A program made the translations under genes and the position numbers. From Oscillospiraceae bacterium (GTDB taxonomy: Bacteria > Bacillota > Clostridia > Oscillospirales > Oscillospiraceae), in assembly GCA_017524845.1 (NCBI GenBank), contig JAFXUU010000019.1:1-36519 (forward strand): a DNA stretch of 36,519 nucleotides, read 5' to 3'. Within the stretch, counting starts at the first letter, position 1; each line of letters starts with the position of its first letter. The notes under the pieces were generated by a model that saw only the letters and a program-made list of their open reading frames with translations, searched no databases and was not told the origin of the DNA. Below, piece after piece: positions 14,956-20,759 of the stretch.

Positions 14956-15595
14956 CCGCGTTTTCCTTCCTTCGATCAGGATTTTTGTCATCATACACGA
15001 TACCGCGGCGAAAATCAATCTTGCCCTGGTCCGAGAAGGCGCGGAAGAGCAGCCAGAGGCCGAAGAGCAGCAGCTGCGGGCTGAAGCGGAGGCCCAGAAG
15101 TGTGAGCAGCGCGGAGGAAAGGAGCCCCGGCAGCAGTTCCTCCAGGGCCGAAGCCGGCGGCCTTCGCAGGCAGCGCAGCATCCGTTCCCCGTCCAGGCCG
15201 CAGGCGGGGAGCAGGTTCGTCAGGCTCAGGAGCAGGCTCACCTTCCCCATGCTCATCAGGACTTCCGTGCCGGACAGCTGCAGAGAAAACCAGAGGACGA
15301 GACCGGCAAGGGGACCTGCCGAAGCCCGGAGAAGCTCGCCCCGGAGATCCGGCTCCGGGCCCGCGCAGTCCAGCGAGGCGCCGGAGATATCCAGGCGGAG
15401 CCGCCGGGGCAGGGCGCCCTGGGCCAGGATGACGGCCAGGTGCCCCAGCTCGTGGACCGCGGCGGCCGCAGCGATCTCCGCCACCGCCGCGGCCCCGCAA
15501 AGGAAGGCGGAGAAGGACAGCAGCAGAAGGAAACCGCCGCTGATCTCCAGGCGGAAGGAAGTTTGCCCCGCGGGCAGGGACTTTTCGTTTGACAT
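14861..15595 (-). CDS. M50 site-2-protease-like membrane protein
   Basis: 244 residues from the ATG at 15595 (MSNEKSLPAG). Several hydrophobic segments are visible, with the zinc motif HELGH at 48-52 in the second one and the matching NLLPACGLDG motif further on, as in SpoIVFB-like site-2 proteases that cut within the membrane. The frame then runs about 95 bases past the start of the next gene in another frame, giving a charged tail that may not be functional. A SpoIVFB-type role in sporulation is possible but not shown. The binding site is weak (AGGA). Confidence 0.8.
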   Translation of the reverse strand: MSNEKSLPAGQTSFRLEISGGFLLLLSFSAFLCGAAAVAEIAAAAAVHELGHLAVILAQGALPRRLRLDISGASLDCAGPEPDLRGELLRASAGPLAGLVLWFSLQLSGTEVLMSMGKVSLLLSLTNLLPACGLDGERMLRCLRRPPASALEELLPGLLSSALLTLLGLRFSPQLLLFGLWLLFRAFSDQGKIDFRRGIVYDDKNPDRRKENADASGTGSDPAEGAEAGPLYRRGIRRDHKKQG

Positions 15596-15616
15596 ACCGT
15601 TGCATCCTGATATAAT
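15589..15616 (+). promoter_or_regulatory. Consensus sigma-A promoter for the recombinase/MBOAT operon
   Basis: TTGACA (15589-15594), 16-base spacer, TATAAT (15611-15616): both hexamers match consensus perfectly. Transcription should start near 15623, about 40 bases before the recombinase ATG. The -35 hexamer overlaps the start codon of the divergent M50 gene, so leftward transcription must cross this promoter. Confidence 0.9.
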
Positions 15617-15662: not shown

Positions 15663-16664
15663 ATGGATTACCGGGAGGAAGCACCGGAGGTCATCCGGGA
15701 TTTTCTCAGCTATCACGAGGTCGTTCGGGGACATTCCCAAAGGACCATCGACGAGTATTACCTGGACCTTCGAACCTTCATCCGTTTCCTGAAAATAAAG
15801 CGCGGTCTCGTCTCCAAGGACACGCCCTTCGAGGAGATCTCCATCGCCGACGCGGACCTCGCCTTCCTCGGCGCCCTCACCAAGACGGAGGTCTACGACT
15901 ATATGAGCTTTCTGGGGCGCGACCGGGTGCGGAACGCCAGGAGCCGCGAGACGGAATACGGGCTCTCCCCCGCCTCCCGCGCGAGAAAGCTCGCCACGCT
16001 CCGCTCCCTGTATAAATACCTCACCGTCAAGACCGGAAAGCTGGAAACGAATCCTCTGGACGGCTTCGATTCCCCGAAGCTCCGCCGGAGCCTGCCGAAA
16101 TACCTGACCCTGGAGGAGAGCATCGCCCTGCTGAGCAGCGTGGGCGGCCGCAACCCGGAGCGGGACCGCTGCATCCTCACGATCTTCCTGAACTGCGGCG
16201 TCCGGATCAGCGAGCTCACCGGCCTCGACATCGGCGACGTCGCGGAGGATCGGCTGCGGGTCACGGGCAAGGGCGACCGGGAACGGGTGGTCTATCTGAA
16301 CGACGCCGTCACCGCCGCCATCAACGAGTATATCCCCCTGCGGAAGAAATACGGCACGGGGCACACCCAGGCCCTCTTCGTCTCCGAGCGGGGGGAGCGC
16401 ATCGCCCGCAGCACCGTTCACCGGCTGGTGAAGACGCATCTGGGCGAGGCCGGGCTGGATCGGGATGGGTATTCCGCCCACAAGCTGCGCCACACAGCCG
16501 CCACCCTCATGCTGCGCAACGGCGTGGACGTGCGCACCCTGCAGGAGCTCCTTGGCCACGAGCACCTTAACACTACGGAGATATACACGCACATTGAAAA
16601 CACGGATCTCCGCATGGCCGCCGACGCGAATCCTCTTGCCAAAATCACGCCGAAGAAAGGATAA
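15663..16664 (+). CDS. Tyrosine recombinase, XerC/XerD type
   Basis: 333 residues from the ATG at 15663 with GGGAGG six bases upstream. The N-terminal SAM-like core-binding domain (about 1-125) is followed by the catalytic domain with the complete set Arg181 (GVRISELTGL), Lys203, His273 and Arg276 (HKLRHT), His299 (GHEH) and nucleophile Tyr308 (IYTHIE). The length is close to XerC/XerD, although residues 45-100 are longer than usual. Xer proteins resolve chromosome dimers at dif. No dif-like site or flanking inverted repeat was recognised here. It is the first gene of an operon with MBOAT and DHHW genes, 11 bases apart, so a housekeeping or local role is open. Confidence 0.92.
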   Translation: MDYREEAPEVIRDFLSYHEVVRGHSQRTIDEYYLDLRTFIRFLKIKRGLVSKDTPFEEISIADADLAFLGALTKTEVYDYMSFLGRDRVRNARSRETEYGLSPASRARKLATLRSLYKYLTVKTGKLETNPLDGFDSPKLRRSLPKYLTLEESIALLSSVGGRNPERDRCILTIFLNCGVRISELTGLDIGDVAEDRLRVTGKGDRERVVYLNDAVTAAINEYIPLRKKYGTGHTQALFVSERGERIARSTVHRLVKTHLGEAGLDRDGYSAHKLRHTAATLMLRNGVDVRTLQELLGHEHLNTTEIYTHIENTDLRMAADANPLAKITPKKG

Positions 16665-16675
16665 AAGAGCGAATC

Positions 16676-18064
16676 ATGGTCTTTTCGAGCCTCCTGTTTC
16701 TGTTCTTTTACCTGCCGGCAACGCTGCTGGTCTATTATCTCGTGCCCTCCCGGTACCGCAGCCTCTGGCTCTTTGCGGTCAACCTCGTTTTCTACGGCTG
16801 GGGCGAGCCGGTCTTCGTCCTGCTGATGGTCTTTTCCATCGCGGTGAACTACGCGGCCGGACTGCTGGTGGAAAAGCACAGAGACAGGGCCGTGCCGATC
16901 CTGACGCTGAACGCGGTCGTCAACCTCGGGCTGCTGTTCTTTTTCAAATACTACGATTTCCTGGCGGGGAGCCTTTCCCGCATCCCCGGCCTCGGCTTCC
17001 TGCATCCCCTGGGCGTCACCCTCCCCATCGGCATCTCCTTCTATACCTTTCAGAATATGTCCTACCCCATCGACGTATACCGGGGGGACGCGAAGCCCCA
17101 GCGCAGCTTCATCCGCTACGGGACCTACGTGGCCCTGTTCCCCCAGCTGATCGCCGGCCCCATCGTCCGCTACAAGGACATCGCCGATCAGCTGGACGAC
17201 CGGCGGGAGACGGCGGAGCGCTTCGCTTCCGGGGTCACCCGCTTCTGCGTCGGGCTGGCAAAAAAGGTCCTTCTGGCCAACAGCATCGGCGCGCTGTGGG
17301 ACGTTTACAAGTCCATGTCCCCCGCCTCCCTCTCCCTGGCCGACGCCTGGCTGGGCGCCGTGGCCTTCACCTTTCAGATTTATTTCGATTTCTCCGGCTA
17401 TTCGGACATGGCGATCGGCCTCGGGCGGATGCTGGGCTTCGAATTCATGGAGAACTTCAACTATCCGTATATTTCGAAAAGCATCACGGAGTTCTGGCGG
17501 CGCTGGCACATCTCCCTTTCCACCTGGTTCCGGGACTACGTGTATATCCCTTTGGGCGGCAACCGGAGAGGACGGGGCCGCCAGCTCCTGAACCTCCTGA
17601 TCGTGTGGGCCCTCACGGGCTTCTGGCACGGGGCCAGCTGGAATTTCCTCCTGTGGGGCCTGTATTATGCGGCCTTGCTGATCCTGGAAAAGCTGTTCCT
17701 CTATGATCGGCTGGAGAAAGCGCCGGGCTGGGTGGGTCACGTATACGCCCTGTTCTTCGTTGTCATCGGCTGGGTGCTTTTCAGCGTGGAGGATCTGGGC
17801 AGCTGCGCGGCCTATATCCGCAGCATGTTCTTCGGCGGGTCCGGTATCGTCTCCGGCACCTTCCTGTATTATCTGCGGAGCTACGCCCTTTCCCTGGCGG
17901 TCATGGTTTTTGCCGCCACCCCGCTGCCGAAGAAGCTCTTTTCCCGGCTGCCGGAGGGGCTCCTGCGGGTCGTGAGACCGATCCTGGTGCTCCTCTCCCT
18001 CGTCCTCTGCACCGCCTATCTGGTGGACAGCACTTATAACCCCTTTCTATACTTCCGTTTCTGA
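16676..18064 (+). CDS. MBOAT O-acyltransferase (AlgI/DltB-like)
   Basis: 462 residues with about ten hydrophobic segments. The protein belongs to the membrane-bound O-acyltransferase family related to AlgI, which moves acetyl groups across the membrane for O-acetylation of extracytoplasmic polysaccharides. The conserved FDFSGYSDMAIGLGRMLGF segment, RRWHISLSTWFRDY with His278, and FWHGASWNF with the catalytic His318 are all present. It follows the recombinase by 11 bases and precedes its usual partner, a DHHW-type protein, by 9 bases. The acceptor glycan cannot be told from the sequence. Confidence 0.95.
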   Translation: MVFSSLLFLFFYLPATLLVYYLVPSRYRSLWLFAVNLVFYGWGEPVFVLLMVFSIAVNYAAGLLVEKHRDRAVPILTLNAVVNLGLLFFFKYYDFLAGSLSRIPGLGFLHPLGVTLPIGISFYTFQNMSYPIDVYRGDAKPQRSFIRYGTYVALFPQLIAGPIVRYKDIADQLDDRRETAERFASGVTRFCVGLAKKVLLANSIGALWDVYKSMSPASLSLADAWLGAVAFTFQIYFDFSGYSDMAIGLGRMLGFEFMENFNYPYISKSITEFWRRWHISLSTWFRDYVYIPLGGNRRGRGRQLLNLLIVWALTGFWHGASWNFLLWGLYYAALLILEKLFLYDRLEKAPGWVGHVYALFFVVIGWVLFSVEDLGSCAAYIRSMFFGGSGIVSGTFLYYLRSYALSLAVMVFAATPLPKKLFSRLPEGLLRVVRPILVLLSLVLCTAYLVDSTYNPFLYFRF

Positions 18065-18073
18065 GGTAACGCA

Positions 18074-19195
18074 ATGAAGAAGCCGCGCTCCGCTGCCCTC
18101 CCCGTCGTCCTCTGCTTCGTCCTTTTCCTGGGCACGGGGCTGGGCCTGCACCTCCTCCTGCCGACAAAGGAATACAGCGAAAATGAAAACCGTTACCTGG
18201 CTTCCGCGCCCGCCTTCCGCTTAAGGACCCTTTTCTCCGGAGACTTCACCGCGGACTTTGAAGACTACGTCACCGACCAGTTCCCCTTCCGGGATTCCTG
18301 GCTGGACCTGAAATCCCGGGCCGAGCGGGCCTTCGGAAAAACGGAGAACAACGGGGTCTTCTTCTGCCGGGAGGATACGCTCATCTCCCGCTTTCCCCAG
18401 CCGAAGGAGGACGCCGTGGCGGGGGCCGTCCGGGCCGTGAACGCCCTCGCCGGGAACACCGGCCTGCCGGTGATCCTGGCGCTGGTCCCTTCCGCCGCCG
18501 AGATCTGGGCGGACCGTCTGCCCGCCCACGCGGATACCGCGGACCAGTCGGCGCTGATCCAAAGCATCTACGGGAGTGTGGAAACGGAAACGGCCGATAT
18601 CTGCGCGGCGCTCCGGGAGCATGCGGGAGAACCCGTTTACTACCGGACGGACCACCATTGGACGACCCTGGGCGCGTATTACGGCTACTGTGCCGCCGCG
18701 GAGGCCCTGGGACTCGCACCGCAGCCGAAGGAGCGCTTCAGCCCCGAAACGGTGAGCGATTCCTTTTACGGCACGGTCTATTCCTCCTCCGGCGTCCGCT
18801 GGGTAAAGCCCGACAGCATGGAGATCTGGGCGCCCGCCGAGGGCGTCGTCCTGACCCGGTACGACAGTCCGGAGGGCACGGTCAGTCCCGTCTACGACCG
18901 CGGGAAGCTGGAAACGAAGGACAAATACAGCATGTTCCTGGGCGGCAACGTTTCCCGCATCGTGATCGAAACCGGGAACGGCGGCGGCAAGCTGCTGGTG
19001 CTCCGGGATTCCTACGCGGACTGTATGCTCCCCTTCCTCTTCGCGCACTATTCCGAGATCCACGTGCTGGATCTCCGCTACTTCCGCAGCAGCGTCTCCG
19101 ATTACGCTGCGGAGCAGGGCTTCGATTCCGTGCTCGTGCTCTACAGCCTGTCGGATTTCCTCACAGATACTTCCGTCTCCCTGCTGGCCTCCTGA
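18074..19195 (+). CDS. DHHW-family (AlgX/AlgJ-like) SGNH acetyltransferase partner
   Basis: 373 residues. An N-terminal membrane anchor or uncleaved signal (about residues 8-30) is followed by an extracytoplasmic domain. The DHHW signature lies at 193-196 in YYRTDHHWTTLGAYYGY, with the serine segment VLRDSYADC near the C-terminus completing an SGNH-like catalytic set. In known systems such proteins take the acetyl group delivered by an MBOAT and transfer it to a glycan. Position right after the MBOAT gene supports this. The acceptor is unknown. Confidence 0.88.
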   Translation: MKKPRSAALPVVLCFVLFLGTGLGLHLLLPTKEYSENENRYLASAPAFRLRTLFSGDFTADFEDYVTDQFPFRDSWLDLKSRAERAFGKTENNGVFFCREDTLISRFPQPKEDAVAGAVRAVNALAGNTGLPVILALVPSAAEIWADRLPAHADTADQSALIQSIYGSVETETADICAALREHAGEPVYYRTDHHWTTLGAYYGYCAAAEALGLAPQPKERFSPETVSDSFYGTVYSSSGVRWVKPDSMEIWAPAEGVVLTRYDSPEGTVSPVYDRGKLETKDKYSMFLGGNVSRIVIETGNGGGKLLVLRDSYADCMLPFLFAHYSEIHVLDLRYFRSSVSDYAAEQGFDSVLVLYSLSDFLTDTSVSLLAS

Positions 19196-19221: not shown

Positions 19222-20691
19222 ATGAAAACAAAGAATCCTCTTGCGGACATGCCCGACCTTCTTCGTCTGCTTCCCGGTGCGGCTGCGCTGGTGCTCCTGC
19301 TTGCCTCCCTCGCCTTTTCCTCCAGCCCGACGGCGCGGACGGTCCTGGCAGCGCTGAGCTTTCTCGCCTCCCTCGCGGCTCTGCGGGAGGATATCCTGCA
19401 GGCGATCCGGAAAAAGGATCTCCGCTCCGGCCTGCTGCTGCTGATCATTGCCTGTCTGATCTGCTTCTGCATCGGCAGCGGACCCTCCGCCGCACTGGCC
19501 ATGCTGCTGCGGGTGCTGGGCAGCATTCTGCTTCCCCTTGTCGAGGGAAGCGTGCGCAGCCTGATGGCCACACGGCGGGCCCTGAATCCGCTGCGGGACC
19601 AGCTTTCCGGCACCGGCGAGGACGCCGGGCCCGCGGGGCGCGTCGAGCTCTTTCTGCAGAATTACTTTACCTGGCTGATGATCCTGATCGCCGCCCTGGC
19701 TGCTGTTCTTACGGTGCTCCTGGGCAAGGTGGGGATCGCCGCCGCTCTTGCCCGGGCTGCCGTTCTTCTCGCCCTGGGCGGCTGCTTCCCTTTCTTTGCC
19801 GCTTTCCCTCTGAACGATGAAGCCGCCGCCCTCCGCGCCGGAGAATGCGGCGTGCTCTTCCGGGGCGGTACCCTCTCGGAGCTGCTGAAGCTGAAGCTGG
19901 CCTGCGTGGAGACCGTATCGCCCGTGGAGATCGGCAGCGTTTCCGTCTACCCCGCCAGGCCGGAGGCCGTCGGCGCGGATCTGATGCTGCGTCTGGCTTC
20001 CGCCGCCACGGCGGAGTGTGAGCTGCCCTTCGCGGAACAGATCCAGGCCGTGCGGAAGGCGAAGCCCGGCGCTTCCGTCCCCGAGCGGGAGGTGCTACCC
20101 GATCTCGGGCTGATCGCCAGGGTAAAGGGCGTCGCCGTGATCATCGGCAGCGGCGAGCTGATGAACCGCAGCGGCCTCAGCGTGCTCCCCTTCCCCGAAA
20201 ATCCCCGGATCCTTCATATGGGCGTCAACGGTCACTACGTGGGCTGCATCGATTTTTCCGAGCAGGAACAGGGCGGGGACGCTCCCGCCGCCTTCGAGGC
20301 GCAGGGCTTTTTCTGCTTCTCGGACGCCGCCGAGGCGGAAGCGAAGCGGCTGTCGGGAGAGCGGCTGCTGTTCGTTTCCCCAGCCTCCGGTCCCGTACCC
20401 GGGCGGAAGGAGGATATCTCCGCCGTCTCCGGCGCGGAGGACAGGCGGAAGCAGATCACCCTGGAGCGCTGCGGGAAGTCCGGCGCCGCCGCGCTTCTGG
20501 AACAGCTGCAGAATGCCCGGCTGGGGCGGAAGGGAACGGTGCTCGTCGCCCTGATCGTGAAGGCTTTTGCGTTCCTGCTGGCCCTTTTCGGCATCTGCCC
20601 CCTCTGGCTGGCCGTTGGGCTGGAGCTGGCCGCCGTCGCCTTCACCTGCCGATATACGATCCATCTGCTGGACTTCGGTGGGAAATACTGA
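19222..20691 (+). CDS. Degenerate P1B-type ATPase-like membrane protein
   Basis: 489 residues, start at 19222 with AAAGGAG seven bases upstream. Hydrophobic segments lie at about 14-33, 39-53, 68-85, 90-107, 150-168, 175-195 and 442-475. The layout follows heavy-metal P-type ATPases in several blocks: the last membrane region (VKAFAFLLALFGICPLWLAV), an LIARVKGVAVIIGSGELM block like the nucleotide-binding domain, and LASAATAECELPF in place of the usual SEHPL region. The catalytic parts are absent: VSPVEIG (232-238) stands where DKTGT is expected, GCFPFF replaces the CPC metal site, the actuator domain is nearly gone, and no GDGxNDxP hinge follows. It cannot be an active pump. A regulatory or structural role beside the acetylation genes is inference. 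Confidence 0.65.
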   Translation: MKTKNPLADMPDLLRLLPGAAALVLLLASLAFSSSPTARTVLAALSFLASLAALREDILQAIRKKDLRSGLLLLIIACLICFCIGSGPSAALAMLLRVLGSILLPLVEGSVRSLMATRRALNPLRDQLSGTGEDAGPAGRVELFLQNYFTWLMILIAALAAVLTVLLGKVGIAAALARAAVLLALGGCFPFFAAFPLNDEAAALRAGECGVLFRGGTLSELLKLKLACVETVSPVEIGSVSVYPARPEAVGADLMLRLASAATAECELPFAEQIQAVRKAKPGASVPEREVLPDLGLIARVKGVAVIIGSGELMNRSGLSVLPFPENPRILHMGVNGHYVGCIDFSEQEQGGDAPAAFEAQGFFCFSDAAEAEAKRLSGERLLFVSPASGPVPGRKEDISAVSGAEDRRKQITLERCGKSGAAALLEQLQNARLGRKGTVLVALIVKAFAFLLALFGICPLWLAVGLELAAVAFTCRYTIHLLDFGGKY

Positions 20692-20707
20692 GCGGAAAAA
20701 ATCGCGG

Positions 20708-20733
20708 GGGGAAAGGCCGGACGGCCTTTCCCC
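20708..20733. terminator. Bidirectional terminator between converging operons
   Basis: A perfect 11-bp stem (20708-20718 with 20723-20733) and 4-base loop lie between the converging pseudo-ATPase and degV genes. T-rich sequence follows on the plus strand. On the minus strand a run of six Ts follows after CCGCGA. It probably ends both transcripts. Confidence 0.85.
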
Positions 20734-20759
20734 TCACGCTGTTTCTTTCTGAACGTATG

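Follow-up and report, generated by a model that had tools for sequence, protein, structure and literature searches.

An actuator-less P1B-type pseudo-ATPase maintained behind an MBOAT-DHHW acetylation operon

The question raised by this locus is what a membrane protein with the frame of a heavy-metal P-type ATPase and none of its catalytic motifs might be retained for at the end of an operon for acetylating a surface polymer. The gene was found in the window, which is the whole stretch of 36,519 nucleotides of DNA from an uncultured Oscillospiraceae bacterium analysed here (GCA_017524845.1, contig JAFXUU010000019.1), and its 489-residue product had been described in the initial annotation as a maintained pseudo-enzyme on a P1B membrane frame. 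This description was borne out in both respects, since the ORF at 19222-20691 is an end-to-end homologue of zinc/cadmium P1B-ATPases, far above chance, and a pseudo-enzyme that is maintained.

The gene is the last of a four-gene unit encoded on one strand (XER-MBOAT-DHHW-pseudoATPase), in which, according to Pfam, the MBOAT gene is followed by the DHHW gene as in MBOAT/DHHW polysaccharide O-acetylation operons. The unit comprises the following features.

15589..15616, + strand: promoter-like site TTGACA-16-TATAAT upstream of XER, 12/12 consensus letters with extended TG (consensus match only)
15663..16664, + strand: XER, a tyrosine recombinase heading the unit, start ATG (Phage_integrase, E 8.6e-38 over 15672-16661)
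16676..18064, + strand: MBOAT O-acyltransferase, 462 aa, 11 bases after XER (PF03062, E 3.7e-32)
18074..19195, + strand: DHHW / AlgX-like SGNH protein, 373 aa, 9 bases after MBOAT, DHHW letters present in the product (PF14286, E 4.6e-33; PF16822, E 5e-13)
19222..20691, + strand: actuator-less P1B pseudo-ATPase, 489 aa, 26 bases after DHHW (P1B homology)
20693..20751, + strand: hairpin just after the pseudo-ATPase stop codon (-35 kcal/mol, z -4.8)

The MBOAT and DHHW neighbours had been recognized correctly in the initial annotation, and so had the open frame with its good ribosome site: the ORF runs from ATG to TGA with 0 internal stops, and an AAGGAG box precedes the ATG. Two promoter-like sites were counted in the region, against 0.8 expected from shuffles. 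The hairpin is likely the end of the unit; it is absent from the list returned by a terminator scan of the region. A recombinase gene at the head of the acetylation unit was also observed in many relatives. In addition, an ordinary intact P1B-ATPase is encoded by the window genome on another contig.

The homology emerged most clearly at the level of profiles. A profile of the nine members of the window-type clade was aligned by hhalign with six intact P1B-ATPases (99.96%, E 6e-39, 484 of 488 columns), the gaps in this alignment falling precisely on the actuator domain and on a portion of the P-domain, and the same nine-member profile detected the zinc pump ZntA (4umv) among PDB sequences at E 2.8e-14. 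When the window protein was taken alone, TIGR01525 (heavy-metal P-type ATPase) gave E 1.2e-8 and 34.3 bits, below its cut-off of 346, Pfam returned no match up to E 10, and phmmer against the PDB returned none. Pfam also matched 0 of the 5 window-type members scanned, so that Pfam-based annotation pipelines would call them hypothetical. The segments of the window protein follow the P1B-2 order, namely MA/MB, M1/M2, M3/M4, P/N block and M5/M6, and the two blocks quoted in the initial annotation fall on the N-domain strand block and on M5/M6. The alignment with intact P1B-ATPases, supplemented by hhalign for the N-domain and P-domain segments, placed the parts as follows.

19570..19641, + strand: linker replacing the actuator domain, residues 117-140
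19642..19818, + strand: M3/M4 hydrophobic stretch, residues 141-199
19780-19788, + strand: GCF where CPC is expected (M4 metal site); CPC in 0/9 clade rows
19909..19923, + strand: ETVSP at the DKTGT columns; motif in 0/9 clade rows
19972..20256, + strand: N-domain-like block, residues 251-345
20017-20028, + strand: CELP replacing SxHP (SSHP in intact copies); HP in 0/9 clade rows
20257..20520, + strand: shortened rest of the P-domain, lacking GDGxND
20521..20652, + strand: M5/M6 pair
20560-20562 and 20623-20625, + strand: Lys447 and Glu468, at the ZntA K693/D714 columns in our own alignment

Every loss postulated beforehand could thus be located. Besides the replaced CPC and the missing His of the ATP-site block, ETVSP occupies the DKTGT columns, the VSPVEIG noted earlier beginning two residues further along, and only one of the nine clade rows, that of G005, has an Asp in the Asp column (DFPDT), the motif being absent there as well. 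The actuator region amounts to 32 residues in the window against 121 in intact copies, with the TGE column unfilled, and S-PASG lies in the GDGIND columns, the hinge being found in 0/9 clade rows, although the alignment is uncertain in the most degenerate part of the P-domain. The M5 Lys is kept in 9/9 clade rows, as is the M6 acid (8 Glu, 1 Asp), and the pair persists in 49 of 51 aligned rows, whereas the M2 Glu is gone in 9/9. According to the accessible text of two reports, K693 and D714 of ZntA are transport residues joined by a salt bridge (PMC8880997, PMC6305203).

Structure prediction gave weak support to this kinship. The AlphaFold2 model built from the window protein and two orthologues was poor (mean pLDDT 41.8, pTM 0.28), and with this low-confidence model Foldseek returned two matches at E <= 0.001, the best being 4umw at E 1.4e-4; ranks 1-25 were all P-type ATPase entries, and the N-domain of HMA6 (5lbd_B) was aligned to the N-domain-like block with a target TM of 0.66.

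The window-type clade was traced in 9 genomes of 3 genera, comprising 6 of the 7 genomes of the window's genus and three from two other genera, one represented by G013 and the other by G085 and G166, and none of the members keeps CPC, DKTGT, HP, GDGxND or the actuator domain. MBOAT, DHHW and pseudo-ATPase genes follow one another on one strand in 8/8 clade loci whose contig reaches far enough, while the contig of the ninth, G005, begins inside DHHW and shows the order DHHW-pseudoATPase. The motif losses and the neighbourhood seen in the window are accordingly shared by its homologues, with DHHW only on the G005 contig. An MBOAT orthologue is present in all 6 pseudo-ATPase-bearing genomes of the genus; the seventh, G006, which is 82% complete, contains neither the pseudo-ATPase nor an MBOAT match at E 1e-20. 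No ArsR gene lies directly upstream of the pseudo-ATPase in the window or in the 8 other clade loci scanned. When 394 genomes of the order were searched with the nine-row profile, E 1e-38 was passed only by G013 and by the genome of the window itself; the sample left out most of the window's genus, so the range of the clade may be wider.

Beyond this clade, a family search of 300 genomes at E 1e-30 matched 24, of which 17 have an actuator-less and 7 a full-length copy among the best 5 candidates scored per genome (the best 3 in another search), so that copies may be missed. Many of the genomes compared are, moreover, incomplete. In 4/4 fetched g95 loci, an actuator-less copy occupies the same place behind DHHW. 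When 71 MBOAT-DHHW loci were compared, 49 were without such a gene in the stretch examined, 8 of these having less than 1.5 kb of sequence beyond DHHW; the loci were hand-chosen, about 11 of them because they bear the gene, so the 22/71 is not a prevalence, and in the same count L108 was not included, the G350 copy was cut by the stretch edge, and the 395-residue piece of G101 was placed in the opposite-strand actuator-less group by length alone. This piece (L098:8142-9326, - strand) is an open, P1B-like frame that contains CPC and lies close to the acetylation locus; it may be a broken copy. The locus L110 of G012 was scored as gene-less because its neighbour belongs to another class of P-type ATPase, an 878-residue protein encoded behind DHHW on the same strand (L110:2344-4977, - strand) in which DKTGT, GDGxND and TGE are present and CPC is absent. 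The 49 gene-less loci imply that acetylation as such does not need the pseudo-ATPase; conversely, actuator-less copies occur away from MBOAT-DHHW in G033 (two copies), G123, G190, G282 and G010, and the family therefore does not need that partner.

That the gene is merely decaying was rejected on the basis of dN/dS well below 1 and losses common to the clade. From Met to stop, the ratios for seven pairs among eight clade members were 0.302, 0.286, 0.292, 0.162, 0.377, 0.309 and 0.165, which means that the whole gene lies below 1 in 7/7 pairs (Fisher p <= 9e-7), though some ratios are rough where dS is near 1. A length of 485-490 aa is kept though identity drops to about 30%, and no frame break was detected in the copies matched in G013, in G166 and in the six members of the genus; in G085 a TAG occurs only in the search stretch, and its ORF (L070, 6298-7866) is open. 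These results and the losses common to the 8 other clade members uphold the earlier view of a maintained gene. Neither of the outcomes that the initial annotation had named as refuting was encountered, as far as the poor structure model allows for the one concerning the fold. Homologues with intact motifs were found, and in G082 such a gene lies tail to tail with this acetylation locus, but they are distant and mark ancestry, not decay of the window copy. In the same kinds of pairs, MBOAT gave 0.09-0.18 and DHHW 0.11-0.17, so the pseudo-ATPase, at about twice these values, is less constrained than its partners. Within the gene, one pair (the window and G002) gave 0.19 for M3/M4, 0.24 for M5/M6, 0.31-0.35 for the P-domain parts, 0.40 for N, 0.49 for M1/M2, 0.56 for MA/MB and 0.99 for the actuator linker, and identity across the clade peaks in M3/M4, N and M5/M6. 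Ratios down to 0.06 were obtained for the g118 copies.

The relatives within the bacterial family can be arranged in a graded series. At its intact end, G082 carries pfkA, fba, ArsR and an all-motif P1B gene tail to tail with DHHW-MBOAT-XER, and ArsR lies upstream in 7/7 intact near relatives (G082, G063, G209, G296, G258, G116 and G129), G116 having GEGLND at the hinge. Full-length broken copies follow: that of G008 lies directly behind DHHW and reads TGET, CPC, DKTGS and GNGIGN, those of G222, G079, G112 and G404 are tail to tail with DHHW, and those of G030, G007 and G012 (L081, L080) lie away from the acetylation locus. Actuator-less copies, in which 21-36 actuator residues are left compared with 121-123 in intact rows, come from g118, G033 (two copies) and g95; most retain CPC and most a DK-type site, and in G310 and G100 of g95 ArsR still stands between DHHW and the actuator-less gene. 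In G010, CPC is lost and DKNGI occupies the phosphorylation site. The bare actuator-less stage is the window type. Directly behind the degenerate P1B gene, an OmpR-type regulator and a histidine kinase were encountered in the same orientation at L072, L078, L074, L099, L100 and L041, which belong to five g118 genomes and G030. At L179:5231-9259 in G060, two tandem P1B-type ATPase genes were found, the first of another subtype (NGES, SPC); the G060 row counts as intact (DKTGT, GDGVND) and was left out of the 40-row tree.

For the phylogeny, 8 of 60 rows were dropped at first, then 51 rows were obtained by taking out 17 names and bringing in 8 new rows, and the 40-row tree dropped 11 of these 51 and left out the actuator columns. 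Two sets were resolved in the 40-row tree: the window type, g95 and G008, all copies directly behind DHHW (12 rows, 97/94), and G082, G063 and G116 with tail-to-tail or fba-linked copies (13 rows, 100/98). A single origin of actuator loss was rejected with 22 actuator-less rows of 51 (AU p 0.0005) and with 17 of 40 (p 2.7e-5), and so was a single clade of all 22 pseudo copies among the 40 rows (AU p 0.001). Tree and gene position agree, which points to two lines with separate actuator losses, a case that appears strong but, given the long branches, not final. Somewhat short of even odds, we would tentatively propose that on at least two parallel occasions P1B pumps beside one acetylation locus became membrane proteins that no longer pump, one line being co-directional behind DHHW (g3, g95, then g1/g8/g80) and the other tail to tail and fba-linked (g74, g107, g118 and others), of which the former would have joined the acetylation operon and the latter, in places, a two-component system. 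If this proposal is true, the copies would constitute a bacterial family of P-type pseudo-ATPases, sensors or subunits, with all stages represented, from the intact pump down to the bare frame.

As to function, the core bundle and N-domain are kept while phosphorylation and dephosphorylation are impossible, and the protein is hence best read, with a probability of roughly 0.55, as a membrane subunit that assists or regulates the MBOAT/DHHW O-acetyltransferase, a role that, like the structural or sensing one suggested in the initial annotation, we infer from gene order. A zinc/cadmium pump of the P1B-2 type from an ArsR-pump cassette would have landed directly behind the XER-MBOAT-DHHW operon and would then have shed ArsR and the actuator domain along with the phosphorylation site, the His of the ATP site and the CPC that binds metal, the dead pump being retained in the membrane without pumping. 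The M3-M6 bundle, which still has the ancestral M5 Lys and M6 acid, may dock in the membrane on MBOAT or on the anchored DHHW transferase, and the N-domain may reach into the cytoplasm and act there as a lid for regulation or docking; the contact with MBOAT/DHHW is presumed, and so is any regulation. In the accessible text of the sources, MBOAT moves acetyl across the membrane and the DHHW protein transfers it to the polymer (PMC9487903, PMC7710045), and elsewhere MBOAT/DHHW-type systems employ additional proteins, among them AlgF, whose function is unknown (PMC9487903), which was counted in favour of a subunit. The gene-less loci, the partnerless copies, the roughly twofold looser dN/dS and the G005 Asp were counted against it.

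A possible though less likely alternative is a pump turned sensor (transceptor), whose bundle would bind a ligand or an ion close to the Lys/acid pair; it would signal to the operon or, in lineages other than the window's, to a neighbouring two-component system. Response regulator and histidine kinase genes indeed lie behind degenerate or actuator-less copies, in the same orientation, in G318, G242, G380, G350 and G282 (g118) and in G030 (g25), the ancestral neighbour is a metal-responsive ArsR-type gene, and the pair itself is retained in the 49 aligned rows; nevertheless, no two-component genes adjoin the window-type copies in the stretches scanned, those of G123 and G190 lie on the opposite strand, and the loss of CPC and the M2 Glu throughout the clade makes metal binding by the window type doubtful.

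A relic drifting slowly under relaxed selection, as the last gene of a useful operon, would explain why the ratios exceed those of MBOAT and DHHW and why constraint on the N-terminal helices and on the actuator linker is weak in the window-G002 pair; it is judged improbable in view of purifying selection in 7/7 pairs, open frames in the matched copies, and a length conserved at such low identity. Still less probable is a transporter or channel working by another mechanism, for example as a passive conduit without phosphorylation: the M3-M6 core is the most constrained part and keeps the Lys/acid pair, but nothing remains of CPC, the M2 Glu or the phosphorylation site, and the actuator domain is missing. 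To our knowledge, no P1B protein works as a transporter without phosphorylation. A chance resemblance to P-type ATPases, to which the absent Pfam match and a structure model unusable on its own might point, is very nearly dismissed by the hhalign and 4umv alignments, by graded intermediates with intact motifs and by the Foldseek ranking, poor as the model is.

Under the preferred subunit reading, the locus points to an unrecognized third component of Gram-positive MBOAT/DHHW acetylation. The engine is lost and selection persists, so that a pump appears converted to a non-pump, along a path still legible in extant relatives, which leads from the intact ArsR-pump through loss of motifs, then of the actuator domain and then of the regulator to the new operon. 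Kinases and proteases offer well-known examples of pseudo-enzymes. A bacterial P-type pseudo-ATPase, or an actuator-less or degenerate P-type ATPase family, was not found in the open-access literature, subscription papers being outside the scope of the search. Whether P1B pumps can serve as receptors is asked for eukaryotic pumps in the accessible part of a review (PMC10654040), and the question becomes testable in bacteria.

Among known systems, the window protein resembles the P1B-2 zinc/cadmium ATPases (ZntA/CadA; 4umv, 4umw) in helix order, N-domain block, M5 Lys and M6 acid, and differs from them by the absence of the actuator domain, CPC, DKTGT, HP, GDGxND and an adjoining ArsR gene and by the shortened P-domain. 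By tree, its nearest intact relatives are the ArsR-P1B (cadC-cadA-like) cassettes found within its bacterial family, of which that of G082 adjoins the same XER-MBOAT-DHHW locus as the window type; unlike the window, these cassettes have intact motifs and ArsR upstream, and the G082 cassette lies tail to tail. A plant P-type ATPase-like protein was judged unlikely to be an ATPase, several core motifs including DKTGTLT being missing; as far as the accessible text goes, it differs in being a single gene of another subclass, with no actuator-less family and no operon (PMC3355532). PatA1/PatB1 of Bacillus cereus and CcsH/CcsI of Clostridia share the order MBOAT then DHHW with the window, and no P-type ATPase relative is described for them in the accessible portions of the two sources (PMC9487903, PMC7710045), whereas the window adds the pseudo-ATPase as its last gene.
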